Below are positions 16,292-37,548 of a DNA stretch of 55,331 nucleotides, piece by piece. Source of the stretch: Balneolaceae bacterium ANBcel3 (GTDB lineage: Bacteria; Bacteroidota; Rhodothermia; Balneolales; Natronogracilivirgulaceae); contig JASCXY010000002.1 of the NCBI GenBank assembly GCA_030012235.1, positions 1 to 55,331 on the forward strand, read 5' to 3'. The translations under genes were made by a program, and so were the position numbers. The notes beneath the pieces are model-generated. The model did not search any database and was not told the DNA's origin. It saw only the letters and a list, made by a program, of their open reading frames with translations. How positions within the stretch are numbered: position 1 is the stretch's first letter; each line of letters starts with the position of its first letter.

Positions 16292-16555
16292 TTAGTTTAG
16301 ACTTATAGGGTTACCGAAGGCAATATCAGCAAGGTCATAGCGTGATTTTTGCATGATTTTTCGCTTCGCAATTTCATGCGTGGTTCGGTGTAAAAACATA
16401 AACATTACCCCATCCCTGTTAAAGCCGCTATCAATGAGATCACGGATGGTGGCCCTGAACTTTGGGTAGTTGTGATCGTGCAGGACATCATTGACCCAGG
16501 CATCTATGATATCGTCCCGTTTAGATTTTGGAGGCAATTTAATAATGTAATTCAT
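16292..16555 (-). CDS. Unknown 87-residue protein
   Basis: A small cytoplasmic-looking protein with no signal or membrane segment, and no family I recognise. It is charged and mostly helical in appearance, with KSKRDDIIDAWVNDVL near the start and HRTTHEIAKRKIMQKSRYD near residue 57. The ATG lies 11 bp downstream of the pseudopeptidase stop on the same strand, so it is probably the last gene of the hisN-like/pseudo-M1 operon. Its position and composition suggest a real gene. I do not assign a function. Confidence 0.6.
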   Translation of the reverse strand: MNYIIKLPPKSKRDDIIDAWVNDVLHDHNYPKFRATIRDLIDSGFNRDGVMFMFLHRTTHEIAKRKIMQKSRYDLADIAFGNPISLN

Positions 16556-16566
16556 AATGATGTGGA

Positions 16567-18885
16567 TTAAAGGGTCCGTGCCATTCGTTGTAGATGCTCT
16601 AAAATTCTCTGGTCATACTCTTTTAACAATCTTTGCTCTATAAAAGATTCCTTATCGGATTGATCCAGAACCGAAACCGAGGCCACTGCAAGAAAACGAA
16701 TTCTGGGATCCGGATCGGTATAGTAGTTATCGACAAAACTGCTTCTCCACTGAAGCTCTTCCGAATTATTTAATAATAATTTATAAGCAAGCCATCGAAG
16801 TTCAAAAGGCCAAGACTCTGATAAATAATATTTTGCAGCTTCCGTGGTTTCGGAAGCAACAGGAAGTTCAAATAATTCTACCAGTAGCGTGGCAGAAAAC
16901 AGGAGATCCTGACGGTCTTCTCTGAGAAAACGAATGGCAAATCGTCGGAAATCTTCCGGCTCAAGCAAATAGCGATATGTTCGTATGGCTTCATTTACAA
17001 GAGCGATATCACTGGATACCTGAATGGTTGATAGTACGTGTTGTTCAACATGGGGAACGCCTCTGTACGCTCGAAGTGCCTTCATTGAAATATGCCGGAT
17101 GCTTTTTTCCTGGTTACGTGTTCCGTCTATGAAACGACGTTCTGTTCCTCTTGCTCCGGAAGTTATTTCAGATAAAACGGCATACAAAGCTGCACGTACA
17201 TCCGGGTTCTCCTCTCTTGCAAGCATATCCTGCAAAGCAAGTTCTAGGTCAGGATTCGAGGCAAATTCTACTAAAGCCAATGCGGCCTGTTTTCTTTTTT
17301 CGGCGTCTTCATTGCGTCGCATTTGATGAAGCCAAAATGGAAACGGTTTTACCTCTGTAAAGTCAATCTGACCGGATATATTCGTAATCCAGATAGCTGT
17401 GATGGCATGGTCCGGTTCAAGCGTATATTGATCTCCATTTGGATCGATCTTTATTTCTTTTTGAGATAAACTTCCTTCGCTTTCCCAAGACAGGTTTATT
17501 GTTATAGAATCCTCCTGAGGGTATCCAAGGGGCTCGGCCAGTATGTGGATTTCAGTAGGTGTTTCCTCTATAAATTCTATTCGATATGTTCCAACCTCCG
17601 AGACATCGGAAGTTCTCCAGTCTGGAACAGATACCCTTCTTCCTACCGACTCATAGAGAGTTATGTCGAAATCAGCATCGGAAAAAGGCGTGTTTCTTGA
17701 AGCAAGTGCACGAATAGATGCATCCAGAGATTCCATTACCAGTAAATCTTTACTGCCTTTTAAAGCACTCTTTGCATTAAGAAGTGCTCTTTGTCCAAAG
17801 TGATCATACAAAGAAACGGGCCGGTCATATGCATCATCTAACGGATCGGAAGCATTAACGTTATCGCTGGAAATATTTTGTTGAATAGCCAGAAAGGCTT
17901 GAAGAACAGGCATATAATAAGCATCGGACCATGTCAGCGGTCTGAATGAAACCCCATACCACTGAGAAATAATGGCTTTCCATAGCTGCAACTCAAGGTT
18001 ATCTATACTTTTATATAAAAATCCAACTCCATAAGCCGCGTTTTTTGTTTCCCAAAAATGGTCTTCGAGATGTATAATATTAAATTCAGTTGCAGGAAAC
18101 TCATTTCTTAAATAACGTTCTGAATCACGGATATAGCGAATGGCAGAGGTCAGAATCTCGGTTCTTTGAGCTTCATCAGAAACTCCTTCTTCCTGATATA
18201 CTCTGATTTGCTTTATGCCCATAAAGGTTTCGTTCATGTCGAACTTCCCTACAGCAAATGACAGCTCTGATAATGGTGTTGAATATTCTGAAGACCAGCT
18301 AACCGATTTTTTCCCATTTTTTTGTGTAACCGTATTTTTTTTACCAGAAAAAACCGCATCATATTCTTCATCTACCGTTATTTTTGCTGTAAAGGTGGCT
18401 TGTATTGCAGGATGCACCGGTCCGGGCAGCCAATGAGATACCGCACCCGGAAGCCGGGAAGAAATCATGCTTCCTTTTCGGGTAATATGAACTCCAAAGG
18501 ACGGTTTCGATGTGTAGGAAAGGCTAAGCTTGAAGTTTTCTCGAGGATCCAGGGGTTCATCAAAAGAAATAATAAGGGTGTCCCCGGCTTGAGAATAATC
18601 AAGAGAAACATTACGATCTGCAGTTACACTATGTATCTCTGTTTCAGGTGCAAACCAAACCAGCTCCTGAACCCGAGTGTTTTTTGGAGTAAATGCATAA
18701 ATGGCTTTTCCTTCAAGCGATCGGCTTTCAATGTCTGCATGCAGACGAAGGTCCAGGTGTGTAATCTCCACATTATAATCAGGGAAAGGAGCATAGTCTC
18801 CATTTTTAAGGGGAAAGGAATAGGTATTTGCCGCAGAAACAGCAAATAGAAGAATTACAAACAGTGAATAACTTTGGGATCTCAT
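16567..18885 (-). CDS. Secreted M1-family pseudopeptidase with helical-repeat C-terminus
   Basis: A 772-residue protein from the ATG at 18885, chosen because it starts a clear signal peptide (MRSQSYSLFVILLFAVSAANT); an in-frame ATG at 18996 would overlap the upstream gene. The N-terminal part has the beta-rich fold of M1 aminopeptidases (ITHLDLRLHADIESRSLEG, like other M1 N-domains). The zinc region aligns without gaps to the canonical M1 gene at 35738-37465 through W-Y-G and W-S-D, but HExxH reads K303-A304-I-I-S307 and the third ligand position is P326. All ligands and the catalytic Glu are therefore missing. Residues ~518-772 look like HEAT-type helical repeats. A scaffold or peptide-binding role in the periplasm is possible. 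Confidence 0.75.
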   Translation of the reverse strand: MRSQSYSLFVILLFAVSAANTYSFPLKNGDYAPFPDYNVEITHLDLRLHADIESRSLEGKAIYAFTPKNTRVQELVWFAPETEIHSVTADRNVSLDYSQAGDTLIISFDEPLDPRENFKLSLSYTSKPSFGVHITRKGSMISSRLPGAVSHWLPGPVHPAIQATFTAKITVDEEYDAVFSGKKNTVTQKNGKKSVSWSSEYSTPLSELSFAVGKFDMNETFMGIKQIRVYQEEGVSDEAQRTEILTSAIRYIRDSERYLRNEFPATEFNIIHLEDHFWETKNAAYGVGFLYKSIDNLELQLWKAIISQWYGVSFRPLTWSDAYYMPVLQAFLAIQQNISSDNVNASDPLDDAYDRPVSLYDHFGQRALLNAKSALKGSKDLLVMESLDASIRALASRNTPFSDADFDITLYESVGRRVSVPDWRTSDVSEVGTYRIEFIEETPTEIHILAEPLGYPQEDSITINLSWESEGSLSQKEIKIDPNGDQYTLEPDHAITAIWITNISGQIDFTEVKPFPFWLHQMRRNEDAEKRKQAALALVEFASNPDLELALQDMLAREENPDVRAALYAVLSEITSGARGTERRFIDGTRNQEKSIRHISMKALRAYRGVPHVEQHVLSTIQVSSDIALVNEAIRTYRYLLEPEDFRRFAIRFLREDRQDLLFSATLLVELFELPVASETTEAAKYYLSESWPFELRWLAYKLLLNNSEELQWRSSFVDNYYTDPDPRIRFLAVASVSVLDQSDKESFIEQRLLKEYDQRILEHLQRMARTL

Positions 18886-18910: not shown

Positions 18911-19690
18911 TTATAAATCCGATGACATATATGATAAAACGGTCTTGGCCAGTATTTCATTGGAGGAAAATCCATTTCCCCCGTTAATCGTTGCATTGCC
19001 TTTTAAATCCAGGAACACTCCTCCAGCTTCATGCAAGATGGGAAGCAGTGGTGCCGCATCCCAGACATTCAGAACCGGATCAAACATAATATCTGCTTTA
19101 CCGGTTGCAACCATCATATGCCCATAAGCGTCGCCCCAGGTACGATGGAGTTTCACCTGATCCAAAAGATGTGAAAAGTCATCAAACATTCCTTCTTCTC
19201 TTATTGTAGTAATGTCTGTACTCAAAAGGGAAGCTTTTGTTAATGTGTCGGTATTAGAAACACGGCAAGGCCTGCCATTATATCTTGCTCCCATACCTGT
19301 TGCAGCTTCACAGAGTTCGTCGGTTGCTGGAGCATATATAATTCCGACTTCAGGTTCATCATCAATGGTTACACCAATTAAAGTGGTATATAAAGGAACG
19401 CCATGTATGAACGACCGGGTTCCGTCAATCGGATCCAGAATCCACTTGATCGTTTTGTTTTCACCTGAGGTTCCGAACTCTTCACCAATGATACCATGGT
19501 CAGGATATTTTTTTTCAATCTGTTCTCTCATCCATGTTTCGGCCATACGATCCGCAGCCGTAACGGGAGAGTCGTCGTCCTTGGAGATAACTTCAATATC
19601 TTTGTTGAACATCTCAAGTGTCTTTTTTCCGGCAGTACGAGCCAGATATATTCCAAACTGAAGTATTTCTTCTTTAATCGTTGATTTCAT
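18911..19690 (-). CDS. Inositol-monophosphatase-family phosphatase, histidinol-phosphatase (HisN)-like
   Basis: A 259-residue Mg2+-dependent sugar-phosphatase-fold enzyme. The metal-site motifs are IGEEFG, WILDPIDGTRSFIHGVPL and VWDAAPLLPILHEAGG. The TRSFI...GTLIG-like segment and HRTWGDAYGHMMVATGKAD resemble the monofunctional histidinol phosphatases (HisN) more than SuhB inositol phosphatases, so dephosphorylation of L-histidinol phosphate is the best guess; inositol-1-phosphate or PAP are alternatives. It is the first gene of a (-) operon with the pseudo-M1 gene (25 bp) and the 87-residue gene. It is divergent from tex across 244 bp. Confidence 0.8.
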   Translation of the reverse strand: MKSTIKEEILQFGIYLARTAGKKTLEMFNKDIEVISKDDDSPVTAADRMAETWMREQIEKKYPDHGIIGEEFGTSGENKTIKWILDPIDGTRSFIHGVPLYTTLIGVTIDDEPEVGIIYAPATDELCEAATGMGARYNGRPCRVSNTDTLTKASLLSTDITTIREEGMFDDFSHLLDQVKLHRTWGDAYGHMMVATGKADIMFDPVLNVWDAAPLLPILHEAGGVFLDLKGNATINGGNGFSSNEILAKTVLSYMSSDL

Positions 19691-27891: not shown

Positions 27892-30270
27892 ATGAAATTT
27901 GCGGTTAAAATCTTTTTTATTTTTTTTCTGCTTCTTATTGGTTTTGTCTACATATCACATTATCTGACGATAAGGGTTTTGGTACCGGATTCTTCGGCTG
28001 ATATCAAGTTAGAGGAACTTCGAAATACGGTTCATGTAGCATGGGATGATTTTGGTGTCCCTACGATTCGGTCTCAAGATGAACTGGACATGTACACCGT
28101 ATTAGGCTATTTACACTCAAGAGATCGATTATGGCAAATGACGCTTCAGCAATACAGATTGCTTGGACTGCATTCTCTCCATATAGACCCTGCCTTGGCA
28201 GCCAAAGATCGTTTTTACATCTCGATGGGGTTTTCAGACCGGGCCCAAAAAATGTATCATTCATTGGATGTATCTGACCAGAGGATAATTAATGCGTATG
28301 TCAATGGGATAAACAGGTTTTTGATGGACCATAAAAAAAAGCTGCCTATCGAGTTTACTCTTTCCGATGCAAAACCTGTTTTATGGGAGCCCTGGCATAT
28401 AACCGGGTTATACTTACTCTGGAAGTGGGATCAAAACGAAGCATTTTGGTCCAAGTTATCCTTGCTTCCCGTGCTTCAGCAGAATGACCCTCAATTGATG
28501 GAAGCCTTATTGGGTATACAGGATCTGCCGGATACAGAGGAACGTTATATTTTTGAAAAATCCAATCAGGTATTACTTGAATTACTTGATCGGTTTGATA
28601 CGTTTTCTACGGTGGGAAGGCCTTCTTCAGCGCCCTATTCGAATTCAGGTATGGCTATTCCCGGCACAACGTCCTCTGATCTGCCCATGCTTTTTATCAA
28701 TCTTGGCACTCCGATGAAGCAATACGATCTCTACTATGAGATCCTTTATGATAACGGAAGCCAAACAACAGGAGGTTTTACTATCCCAGGCATTCCTGTT
28801 TTTTTTCATGGGAAGAACCCTTCAATAGCCTGGTCGGTTTCTCCCCTGCCTGGTAACGATGGAGCTTTTTTTACAGGATCTTTATTCAAAGAAGAGACGG
28901 AAGGGCCGTTTAACTGGAAAACCAATGTTAATCTTTACGATCAACTTTCTGATCACATTGCCCCAAGCAGATATATTTTATCATCAAAAGACGGGTCAGA
29001 GTCCTTTTTTGTATCGTTTACTTCTCATGACAGGCCTCTGGTTGCGTACTCTGAAAAAGACAATGTTTACATCGCTTATGAGTGGGAGCCAGATTCCGCT
29101 GCTTTGGAAATCAGTTCGATGCTATCATTGCACAAGGCAACGGAAAATGAAAACTGGACTACTGTCGCCGATTCCTTTAGGGGGCAGCCTCTGCAAATTT
29201 TATACACGGGGAAAAGCGGTGATGCCGGAATTGTAACGGGCGGAAGCGTAGTGAACACGACCAAAGACATTCAAGTATCCTTTTTGCACTCTGATCCGAC
29301 AAATCGTATCCCAGTTAAAAACAAGTATCCTTCCATATCAAGAACCTCCGGAAGTCCTGTTTTTTTGTATGAATCACGTACGGGTAATAACGATATTTTT
29401 CAAAAACCCTGGAATCGTAACAGGCGTTTAAACATGCTCGTATATAATGCCTCAGAAGATCAATACGGTGTTTATGCTTCTAAAGAGTGGACAAATGACA
29501 CACATTCTGTTTTTGCTTCAGATATCGTTCCTAAACTATCTCAAATCATCAGCCGAAATCCGTCTGAGCTTTCCAGCGAATATGCCCTTCCCTATTTTTT
29601 AAACTGGAACTACACGTATTCTGAACAAGAGACGGCTGCATCTCTGTTTGAGTTATTTCTTCATAAGGCTTCAAGAAATTTATATAAAAACCTGCTTAGT
29701 GAAAAAGAATGGGGCCACCTGCTCTATTCTTCACAAATTCCTTATGGTGCCGTCTACCGATTAATTGATACGCCACTTTGGCCTGATTTCTTTGAAAGTT
29801 CAAAATCAGAGTGGATTACCAGGAGTATGGATGAAGCCGTTCAATATTTAATGGAGCATGTCAGTGAAGAGCCCCATGACTGGCAATGGGGATTGGTGGT
29901 AGAAGGTGATTTTTCATCCGCCATCTTTCCGGAAACTACCAAAATCAGTTATCCTGCACGACTTGCCGAGCGTTTTCTGTTCCAAAAGAGATCAGAAACG
30001 GTGAAAGGTGCGCCTCATACGTTATTTAATGCATTTTATACCATTAGCGAAGATCCTCAATTAATCACGACAAGTGGAACGACGGCTGGTTTTATAGGTG
30101 TTTTTGGCGATGAGCCTGGGTTTTATTCCCTTTTGAGTTCGGGACAATCAGGAAACTTTTTCTCCGATCTCTATGATAACCAATTCTTGCTTTGGCAACA
30201 GGGAGAAATGAGGTTTAAACATTTGGATGCAGCGTCTGTGCCAGAGGAACAACTGTTTTTGCCACGTTAA
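27892..30270 (+). CDS. Penicillin acylase family (Ntn-hydrolase) protein
   Basis: A 792-residue member of peptidase family S45, which includes penicillin, cephalosporin and acyl-homoserine-lactone acylases. An N-terminal hydrophobic segment (IFFIFFLLLIGFVYI) directs it to the envelope. The alpha-chain motif is LGYLHSRDRLWQM, near residue 82. The probable autoproteolysis site and N-terminal nucleophile of the beta chain is S250 (YSNSGMAI). KNPSIAW further on supplies the family's oxyanion Asn region. The residue before the Ser is Tyr rather than the usual Gly, so processing should be checked. The natural substrate is unknown. Confidence 0.82.
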   Translation: MKFAVKIFFIFFLLLIGFVYISHYLTIRVLVPDSSADIKLEELRNTVHVAWDDFGVPTIRSQDELDMYTVLGYLHSRDRLWQMTLQQYRLLGLHSLHIDPALAAKDRFYISMGFSDRAQKMYHSLDVSDQRIINAYVNGINRFLMDHKKKLPIEFTLSDAKPVLWEPWHITGLYLLWKWDQNEAFWSKLSLLPVLQQNDPQLMEALLGIQDLPDTEERYIFEKSNQVLLELLDRFDTFSTVGRPSSAPYSNSGMAIPGTTSSDLPMLFINLGTPMKQYDLYYEILYDNGSQTTGGFTIPGIPVFFHGKNPSIAWSVSPLPGNDGAFFTGSLFKEETEGPFNWKTNVNLYDQLSDHIAPSRYILSSKDGSESFFVSFTSHDRPLVAYSEKDNVYIAYEWEPDSAALEISSMLSLHKATENENWTTVADSFRGQPLQILYTGKSGDAGIVTGGSVVNTTKDIQVSFLHSDPTNRIPVKNKYPSISRTSGSPVFLYESRTGNNDIFQKPWNRNRRLNMLVYNASEDQYGVYASKEWTNDTHSVFASDIVPKLSQIISRNPSELSSEYALPYFLNWNYTYSEQETAASLFELFLHKASRNLYKNLLSEKEWGHLLYSSQIPYGAVYRLIDTPLWPDFFESSKSEWITRSMDEAVQYLMEHVSEEPHDWQWGLVVEGDFSSAIFPETTKISYPARLAERFLFQKRSETVKGAPHTLFNAFYTISEDPQLITTSGTTAGFIGVFGDEPGFYSLLSSGQSGNFFSDLYDNQFLLWQQGEMRFKHLDAASVPEEQLFLPR

Positions 30271-32107: not shown

Positions 32108-33178
32108 TTACATTTCTCCAGCACTAAACCGCTGATCCGGTTTTAGAGAAAGGACACATTCTGTGAAAAGATCCGTCAACATCTCGACGTCACTCAAAGA
32201 AGCCAACTCTACCGGGCTGTGCATATATCGCAAAGGCAGTGAAACCAGTCCGCTGGGAATCCCCTGCTTTTGATGGAAAATACTGTCCGTGTCGGTTCCC
32301 GTTCTGGAGCCTGCGGCTTCATGCTGCAAAGGCATATTCATCTGTTCTGCTACTTCTCTGACGTGCTGTTGCACCAACGGATGATTGGATCCGCCATGGC
32401 ATACTACCGGACCTTTTCCAAGAAGGATAAAACCGTGTTCTTTCGGATCAATTCCCGGCGAATCTGTGGCATGGGTTACATCTGTGACAAGAGCAACGTC
32501 AGGAGTGTGTCTGAAAGCCATCATTTTAGCCCCGAAGCCCCCTATTTCTTCCTGTACGGCGTTTAATGCAATCACATTGACACCCAGTCTGCTTTTTTGA
32601 TTCCACAGTTTCTGAAGCGTTTTTGCAATAATATAGCTACCCAGGCGATTATCCAGAGCACGGCCGGTTATAATTTCGTCCGAAATAAACTCGTGCTGCT
32701 CAGAAAAGACCACTGGATCTCCCAACTGAACCATTTGTAACGCCTCTTCTTTGTTCTCAGCTCCAATATCAATGAAGATATCTTTCCACTTGGGTAGTTT
32801 GCCGTTTTTTTCTTTTAGGTGAATAGCGGTTGAACCGGTAACACCACTTACAGTTCCTTTTTGCGTTAAGATGTGTACCTTTCGTCCCTGGGCGATGGCC
32901 GAGTCACTTCCCCCGATTTTTTGAACATAAATAAAGCCTTTTTCATCGATGTAATGAATGATCATACCAATTTCATCACAATGCGCTTCCAGCATTACGG
33001 TACAAGCGGAAGAATTCGTCTGGATATGAGCGGAAGCGGACCCATAAGCATCCATTTGAACGACATCAGCGTATGATGATGTAAATGATGTCCATACATT
33101 TTGTCCTGCTTTTTCAAAACCGGACGGGCTTGCTGTGCTTAAAAGTTCTTCAAGAAAGATCCTTGAATCGGAGTTCAT
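32108..33178 (-). CDS. M42-family metallo-aminopeptidase
   Basis: A 356-residue cytosolic dinuclear-metal aminopeptidase of the glutamyl/tetrahedral (TET) aminopeptidase family. The metal and catalytic motifs are EAHCDEIGMI near residue 65, GRALDNRLGSY, QEEIGGFGA and VTDVTHATD, and the last ligand His is in HSPVELASLSD. Such proteins form dodecameric complexes and trim peptides. The ATG has an A-rich leader containing a hairpin (33204-33235). It converges with the Hc1-like gene. Confidence 0.9.
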   Translation of the reverse strand: MNSDSRIFLEELLSTASPSGFEKAGQNVWTSFTSSYADVVQMDAYGSASAHIQTNSSACTVMLEAHCDEIGMIIHYIDEKGFIYVQKIGGSDSAIAQGRKVHILTQKGTVSGVTGSTAIHLKEKNGKLPKWKDIFIDIGAENKEEALQMVQLGDPVVFSEQHEFISDEIITGRALDNRLGSYIIAKTLQKLWNQKSRLGVNVIALNAVQEEIGGFGAKMMAFRHTPDVALVTDVTHATDSPGIDPKEHGFILLGKGPVVCHGGSNHPLVQQHVREVAEQMNMPLQHEAAGSRTGTDTDSIFHQKQGIPSGLVSLPLRYMHSPVELASLSDVEMLTDLFTECVLSLKPDQRFSAGEM

Positions 33179-35737: not shown

Positions 35738-37465
35738 CTAATCGAATAGTCCGCTTCTAAGCACTTTGTTTTTCGGGTCAATTTCAACCCTTTCAACGTC
35801 CCTTATTTCCAGAGATTTCTTTCCATCAGGAATTACTATATGAATCAAATCTCCATCCTGTACCTCTACAGGCATGGGAAAGGCTCTGTTTCCCGGTGTA
35901 TCCCATCTTAACGTTAACAGATTTTCGTCCCAATCTTTTATAAGTTCAGGAAGTTCTGACTCTTTCAGATATATATCAAAAAGCCATCGTAAAGAGTCTC
36001 CGTGTTTAGCTTCAACCAGGTCTGTAAAAGTATCTGTATCGGTGAACCTGCCGGGAACCGGTGTTTCCTGGGGCGTATAATAGAGGTCGTCGGGATATAA
36101 AAAAGACTTCAACGAGTTCCTGAAGGATTCTTCACCGATAACATATCTAAGTGTATGCAGAACCCAGGCGCCTTTCATATAAACATCTCTTCCTGAAAGT
36201 AAATCTGAAGCAAAAGGGTGTCCCTCTGGTACAATGGCTATGTTGTTCAGTATGCGACCATAAATGATTTCCATAAAACGCATATAGAATTCATAATCAT
36301 GGACAGACTCTACATACAAAGCCTGCATGTACGTAGCAAATCCCTCATGCAACCAGAAGTCTCTCCAGTTATAAGCGGTTAAAAAGTTACCCCACCACTC
36401 GTGAGCCAGTTCGTGATGATGCAGATCATCAAAACCTGCACCGGACTCAAAGACCACATCGGGAATATAACCGGCTCCATAGGCAATAAGTGTTTGATGT
36501 TCCATGCCGAGATACGGCATTTCCACGATCCCATACTTCTCACTTCTGAATGGATACGGACCCAGGAAGTCTTCAAAAAAAGCCATATGCTTCAAAACTT
36601 CCGGAAGAAGTCGTTCTGCTTTGTGAACATGCTCTGGAAGTGCCCAGAAATAGACCGGGAATTTTGTTCCTGTGATACTGGTATACTGTGAAGAAACCTT
36701 CTCGAATGGTCCGATTGCCAGAGTAATGTTGTAATTGTTTATTGGAAACTCATGAGTCCAACTAAAGGTATTTGTATCATCTGATAACGACTCTTCAGAA
36801 ACAAGAACACCGTTTGAGAGCGCATTAAGGCCGTCAGGAACCGTAATCGTCATAGAAACACGATCCGGCCGGTCTGATGGGTGATCTTTTACAGGAAGCC
36901 AAAGGTCAGCCCCATTTGCCTGACAGGATACCCCGATCCATGGCTGTCCGCTTTCAGATTCTGCCCAAACGAACCCTCCGTCCCAGGGAGGGTTTTCAGC
37001 AGAACGGGGTTCACCAAAATAGGACACTTCTATATCTATAACAGAGCCGGCAGGAACCTCATCATTAAAATCCATTATCAATAATCCGTCCTTATGGATG
37101 TAATCCAGGCTGTAAGAGTCATATGGAGGACGAATCCACATCACACGGTCCACCCAAAAAACAGAATCAAGATGCAGCACAAAACGGCTCATATCTTCCA
37201 GTATTTCTACTTGAATGATCACACTGGAATGGATGGTTTTGTACTCAGGTTCTATGTAAAGGTCGATATTGTATGAAAGAACATTCACGATGGACTGTTC
37301 ATACAGCAAATAGCCACCGGACTTTGAGGTCTGGTTTACATATTCATCAAGAGTAACAACCTTGGGGTGCTTGGACGCGATTGCTTGTAAACAAGGCGAA
37401 AGAATACCTCCTGTTGAAAGAATAAAAACAAGGAGGTATAATTTATTGAATACATTCCTGGCCAT
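35738..37465 (-). CDS. Exported M1-family zinc metallopeptidase
   Basis: A 575-residue peptidase from the ATG at 37465, which opens a signal peptide (MARNVFNKLYLLVFILSTGG); an in-frame ATG at 37531 would add 22 polar residues in front of it. The zinc site is complete: H351-E352-x-x-H355 (HELAHEWWGN) and E374 (LHEGFATY). The substrate-binding GxMEN is present as GMEH (MPYLGMEHQT). It should remove N-terminal residues from peptides in the periplasm. It is the last gene of the long (-) run, 83 bp after folA, and converges with the FecR-like gene. Confidence 0.9.
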   Translation of the reverse strand: MARNVFNKLYLLVFILSTGGILSPCLQAIASKHPKVVTLDEYVNQTSKSGGYLLYEQSIVNVLSYNIDLYIEPEYKTIHSSVIIQVEILEDMSRFVLHLDSVFWVDRVMWIRPPYDSYSLDYIHKDGLLIMDFNDEVPAGSVIDIEVSYFGEPRSAENPPWDGGFVWAESESGQPWIGVSCQANGADLWLPVKDHPSDRPDRVSMTITVPDGLNALSNGVLVSEESLSDDTNTFSWTHEFPINNYNITLAIGPFEKVSSQYTSITGTKFPVYFWALPEHVHKAERLLPEVLKHMAFFEDFLGPYPFRSEKYGIVEMPYLGMEHQTLIAYGAGYIPDVVFESGAGFDDLHHHELAHEWWGNFLTAYNWRDFWLHEGFATYMQALYVESVHDYEFYMRFMEIIYGRILNNIAIVPEGHPFASDLLSGRDVYMKGAWVLHTLRYVIGEESFRNSLKSFLYPDDLYYTPQETPVPGRFTDTDTFTDLVEAKHGDSLRWLFDIYLKESELPELIKDWDENLLTLRWDTPGNRAFPMPVEVQDGDLIHIVIPDGKKSLEIRDVERVEIDPKNKVLRSGLFD

Positions 37466-37548
37466 TAAAAAATACCTTTTCGATGAGATAAGACATTGCC
37501 TGTTACTAAAGCTATACGGGTCAATATACACTACAGAAGAGCAAAGTA

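Follow-up and report, generated by a model that had tools for sequence, protein, structure and literature searches.

The described M1 proteins with which the present one is compared are TAF2 and Tma108. In TFIID, the aminopeptidase-like domain of TAF2 has a structural role and contacts DNA (PMC6220335). Tma108 is the M1 case of a 2024 review of pseudometallopeptidases, the passages found of which do not mention TAF2 and name no bacterial M1 protein (PMC11266112). Searches of the open-access literature gave no report of a pseudopeptidase of the M1 family in bacteria or of a Balneolaceae M1-HEAT protein. The gene analysed here was found in Balneolaceae bacterium ANBcel3, within a window of 55,331 nucleotides (the whole stretch of DNA analysed). 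Its product, pseudo-M1, appears to add a bacterial variant to the M1 pseudopeptidases, of which TAF2 is an example.

Gene layout and predicted fold

The pseudo-M1 gene starts at the ATG at 18885; ORF, frame and start were confirmed, and an in-frame ATG further upstream (18996) falls within a hisN-like gene. The encoded protein has the following parts.

16567–18885 (−): pseudo-M1 and HEAT gene, 772 aa; no catalytic residue conserved
18820–18885 (−): predicted signal peptide, residues 1–22; from hydrophobicity; no lipobox
18190–18771 (−): M1 N-terminal beta-saddle domain, residues 39–232; Pfam PF17900 and DSSP of the model
17644–18174 (−): degenerate, shortened catalytic-like domain, residues 238–414; no PF01433 match; from alignment and model
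17908–17979 (−): position of the HExxH(x18)E site, residues 303–326; reads K-A-x-x-S ... P; QW(F/Y)G anchor retained
17350–17592 (−): beta-sandwich, residues 432–512; DSSP of the model
16573–17343 (−): HEAT solenoid, residues 515–771; PF13646 and model helices

The initial annotation had described an exported, full-length M1 relative with added helical repeats. Export is still predicted from the hydrophobic N-terminus, which recurs in 66/69 orthologues. The repeats can now be named: HEAT_2 (PF13646) matches residues 516–576 at 31.8 bits, Pfam recognizes one further, weaker HEAT repeat, and HEAT_2 is matched in 45/47 orthologues. The description as full length fits only in part: the catalytic-like region falls tens of residues short of its length in active M1-HEAT proteins. 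The shortening lies between the zinc motif and the Tyr/KGxW region.

Descent from the M1 family, also proposed there, is borne out by a Pfam match, by the predicted fold and by the best matches in the PDB. Peptidase_M1_N (PF17900) covers residues 43–199 with 26.5 bits (cut-off 25.8). An AlphaFold2 model built from a 69-row alignment (pLDDT 92.2, pTM 0.86) came out as M1-like, with an N-terminal helix followed by the beta-saddle, catalytic-like domain, beta-sandwich and HEAT solenoid in that order. The best 50 Foldseek matches listed against the PDB are only M1 aminopeptidases (IRAP, ERAP1/2, PepN) and TAF2, all with probability 1.00; TM-scores are moderate, about 0.4–0.55. TAF2 (7edx chain B) ranks second and has the top TMq, 0.55, among the matches listed. 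The profile of the Balneolales family matches PDB M1 structures at E 1e-18 to 1e-19, with TAF2 best (E 2e-19) and leukotriene A4 hydrolase (LTA4H) next (1.5e-18). Judged from sequence, the M1_N score over the Pfam cut-off and these profile matches put the resemblance to M1 far beyond chance. The predicted arrangement, with a helical domain of catalytic type after the beta-saddle, is shared with M1 peptidases. LTA4H and the cold-active aminopeptidase 3cia have this fold of N-saddle and catalytic domain too, but unlike pseudo-M1 are active zinc enzymes.

Catalytic residues, retention and gene neighbourhood

A canonical M1 gene of the same window, outside the pseudo-M1 system, serves as comparator.

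35738–37531 (−): canonical M1 peptidase; PF01433 69.5 bits

Its site, HHELAHEWWGNFLTAYNWRDFWLHEG, aligns with WKAIISQWYGVSFRPLTWSDAYYMPV of pseudo-M1. K303 and A304 then stand at the His and Glu that open the motif, S307 takes the place of the second His and P326 that of the Glu ligand, and the anchors W309, G311, W319 and D321 are retained. The earlier claim that all zinc and catalytic residues are replaced stands for K303, A304 and S307. It is weaker for P326, the column of which is unreliably aligned across the family and reads E in 14/69 rows; for the third ligand, all that is certain is thus that no Glu is conserved. HExxH occurs in 0/69 rows of the census alignment (the window protein and 68 orthologues), anywhere in the row, and is absent from the motif region of 56 orthologues, a set that overlaps the first. 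Relatives with HExxH at this position had been named as the sign of recent decay; there are none among the orthologues, and such decay is not indicated. A predicted fold other than M1, the second refuting outcome named, did not arise either. Position 303 is Arg in 54/69 orthologues, where the window protein has Lys, and position 307 is mostly Ala, Gly or Ser. The QWxG anchor is nearly invariant (Q308 67/69, W309 67/69, G311 69/69). A Balneolales orthologue in G133 (L197:695-3466) has an insertion past the motif and QWTQ in place of QWFG.

The remaining hallmarks of M1 chemistry are also missing. The exopeptidase motif GxMEN is absent from pseudo-M1, where ETKNA stands in its place; the position of its Glu is Asn in the window protein and Pro, Ser, Thr or Gln in most other orthologues. 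The catalytic Tyr in its YxKG context is absent, in a region that has been trimmed. PF01433 gives no match to pseudo-M1 at E<=1, and the genome-wide search with it finds three other genes only, one of them L001, a long M1 that bears HEAT-like repeats. None of the residues that M1 chemistry requires is conserved; all domains are nonetheless under selection. With its predicted M1 fold, and with catalytic residues lost throughout the aligned orthologues, the protein qualifies as a putative pseudopeptidase.

Pseudo-M1 is a single-copy gene in its genome and widespread in its order, Balneolales, the members of which are marine and salt-loving. A match was found in 60/60 related genomes searched, from 27 genera, and a class-wide search gave a strong match in 68/72 Balneolales genomes. 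Carriers include Balneola, Fodinibius, Gracilimonas, Rhodohalobacter and many MAGs. The contig search gave matches with an alignment as query and none with a single protein. No strong match was found in G120 and G154, of one genus, or in G164 and G166, reduced 1.5-Mb genomes of another; pseudo-M1 is therefore not essential in every setting. HEAT is the most conserved part (mean pairwise identity in the 69-row alignment 34%, against 31% for the N domain, 26% for the catalytic-like domain and 23% for the sandwich).

Purifying selection acts on every domain. Pairwise dN/dS among close orthologues is 0.04–0.24. Summed over pairs, it is 0.138 for the whole protein, 0.125 for the N domain, 0.134 for the catalytic-like domain, 0.169 for the sandwich and 0.115 for HEAT; the value for the whole is twice that of the hisN-like neighbour (0.069). 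Together with order-wide retention and synteny, these values agree with the earlier view of a protein that is kept. Two further genes flank pseudo-M1 on the same strand.

18911–19690 (−): hisN-like gene, histidinol-phosphatase-like, inositol-monophosphatase family; TIGR02067 269 bits, cut-off 275
16292–16555 (−): conserved, helical 87-aa ORF downstream of pseudo-M1; 11-bp gap

Upstream on the same strand, the neighbour is the hisN-like gene in 62/71 loci with room. The stop of this gene lies 25 bp from the pseudo-M1 ATG, a gap that makes co-transcription likely. An ABC-2 permease gene lies downstream, in convergent orientation, in 54/63 loci. The 87-aa ORF probably belongs to the same operon as pseudo-M1. 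It matches no Pfam or NCBIfam family. In genomes of the same family its full-length matches are 74–84% identical, which exceeds the conservation of pseudo-M1, and by position it is found beside pseudo-M1 at 37–41% in three genomes of other families. Its product, which lacks a signal peptide, is nonetheless a candidate for an operon partner. A consensus scan for promoters and terminators gave scores near background. The window also encodes a penicillin amidase-family protein (27892–30270, +) and an M42 aminopeptidase (32108–33178, −).

M1-HEAT relatives beyond Balneolales

Active M1-HEAT proteins with complete sites are found elsewhere in the phylum and in the same genome (L001). Those of other Bacteroidota (such as L182, L183 and L185) and L001 resemble pseudo-M1 in domain order and QWFG context, and several (L182, L185) have a YQLR-type junction like that of pseudo-M1. 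They keep HExxH(x18)E, GxMEN and a Tyr of the YxKG type, all of which pseudo-M1 lacks.

A second, patchier group of pseudopeptidases occurs in the order that contains G065 and G087, which from its class-mates is judged to be Rhodothermales; strong matches were found in 9/114 of its genomes. Seven of these proteins (L178, L206, L207, L179, L180, L181, L212) lack HExxH, with sites such as LARLLARQWFG, QLATNLAKQWYG and ALAHQWVG. Unlike the Balneolales group, the seven retain a longer catalytic domain. In L191 (G082:C155) a contig end cuts the gene just past the HExxH site; WLNEGFATY and YRKG are retained. The ninth match, L211, is an active-type protein. L191 and L198 (G082:C73) were considered as halves of one gene and rejected, as their sequences do not join. 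The gene rlmB adjoins six of the seven Rhodothermales loci, so that the neighbourhood differs from that of the Balneolales group. Synteny common to both groups through a SpoU-type methyltransferase was likewise discarded: one is TrmH-like, the other RlmB.

The full-length tree unites the Balneolales pseudo-M1s in one group (SH-aLRT 100) and those of Rhodothermales in another (SH-aLRT 89, or 98 with L191). In this tree, taken as unrooted, both groups and L191 stand opposite the active M1-HEAT proteins (SH-aLRT 98). A further M1-HEAT protein, L190:499-3042 (G082:C9), has lost the His-Glu of HExxH (ELARSVAHQWFG) but retains the second His and a Glu. Since this protein falls within the active clade, its loss is an independent one.

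Proposed role and comparison with known systems

Binding is the most likely role, given that the protein is retained although catalysis is lost. The preferred reading, with a probability of about 0.68, is that pseudo-M1 is an ancient, exported, non-catalytic M1-fold protein that acts by binding or scaffolding, with HEAT as the likelier surface. The proposed mechanism has three elements. (i) Pseudo-M1 would be secreted to the periplasm or beyond, as the hydrophobicity of its N-terminus suggests. (ii) The core of M1 N-domain and sandwich would act as a rigid frame. (iii) Within a complex of the periplasm or envelope, the HEAT solenoid would be the chief surface for binding other proteins.

Pseudo-M1 might instead be a regulator or decoy. 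It would bind either peptides or the cell's own active M1 peptidases and adjust the activity of the latter, for example as an inactive partner subunit. The three ordinary PF01433 matches kept by the genome, L001 included, speak for this, and passages of the pseudometallopeptidase review present the regulation of active cousins by inactive paralogues as a known theme (PMC11266112). With GxMEN and the zinc residues, however, the canonical peptide-anchoring groups are gone. Active M1 genes are moreover not genetically linked to pseudo-M1, the conserved neighbours of which are the hisN-like gene and the ABC transporter. Such a role is considered unlikely.

It is also improbable that the protein is a cryptic enzyme, with the old site rebuilt for other chemistry by D275, W278, E279, R303, Q308 and W309. 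Conservation of D275 (61/69), W278 (64/69), R303 and Q308 would fit a rebuilt site, and USP53/54 were first called pseudoenzymes and later found active (PMC12037411). Several points speak against this. The QW.G anchor and, in several rows, an aromatic residue at 278 are matched in active M1-HEAT proteins and appear to be structural. At 303 the window protein has K rather than R, no new cluster of His, Asp or Glu is invariant, and the HEAT part is better conserved than the catalytic-like part. Recent decay of an active M1 peptidase to a pseudogene would account for the lost catalytic residues only. It is rejected as very improbable, because HExxH is missing from all orthologues across the order, long ORFs are intact, dN/dS is about 0.14 and synteny is kept. 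A protein outside M1 with chance motif resemblance has negligible probability: PF01433 fails to match and PF17900 is barely above its cut-off, but the profile matches, the confident model with its Foldseek matches and the Rhodothermales relatives, which bridge to active M1-HEAT proteins, rule it out.

The binding or scaffolding role preferred here had been suggested by analogy with TAF2, and that likeness is now supported at the levels of sequence and fold. Comparisons used only stretches of TAF2, PSA, F3, LTA4H and IRAP. Both bacterial pseudo-profiles have TAF2 as their top sequence match in the PDB. For the Rhodothermales profile it reaches E 9e-39 and 136 bits, with PSA next at 126, and the matching stretches span the catalytic domain, sandwich and HEAT. 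For Balneolales pseudo-M1 the matches are collinear in four stretches and partly weak. Loss of HExxH in the Rhodothermales profile explains part of the ranking of TAF2, but not the match at the sandwich/HEAT junction, which lies beyond the catalytic domain. There, human TAF2 619–697 (PDB 30ff) scores 13.8 bits with Balneolales, 22.3 with Rhodothermales and 26.0 with active M1-HEAT proteins, against at most 8.3 bits in 2000 shuffles; with the active M1-HEAT alignment, shuffles reach at most 5.0. From the junction matches, the M1-sandwich-HEAT layout seems to be shared with bacterial M1-HEAT proteins, and its common origin in TAF2 and bacteria is a lead drawn from sequence comparison, with convergence as the alternative. 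M1-region trees with human and yeast TAF2, in which branches are long, have no supported branch joining TAF2 to either bacterial pseudo group. A sister relationship of TAF2 to the Rhodothermales group finds no support in the trees, whether the motif columns are included or removed.

A broader proposal is tentative and doubtful. M1-HEAT proteins may be prone to losing catalysis and being reused as scaffolds; the cases would be Balneolales, Rhodothermales (perhaps as a separate event), L190 and TAF2. TAF2 might derive from bacterial M1-HEAT stock, and the Balneolales protein might then be an exported counterpart of TAF2, at the centre of an envelope complex not yet described. As an order-wide, single-copy gene of cultured Balneolales, pseudo-M1 offers a tractable model for the passage from peptidase fold to binding protein, and a comparison point for the origin of TAF2.

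Among known systems, Tma108, a yeast protein associated with nascent chains, is like pseudo-M1 an M1 member with a proposed binding role. According to the review passages, it keeps all zinc and general-base residues, has only a substrate-binding residue altered and is ribosome-associated, in all of which it differs from pseudo-M1 (PMC11266112). TAF2 shares with pseudo-M1 the M1 domain order, a helical solenoid and the absence of HExxH (the human site is LAQSLAQQFFG). It is a nuclear protein of 1199 residues and part of TFIID, whereas the bacterial protein has a predicted signal peptide.
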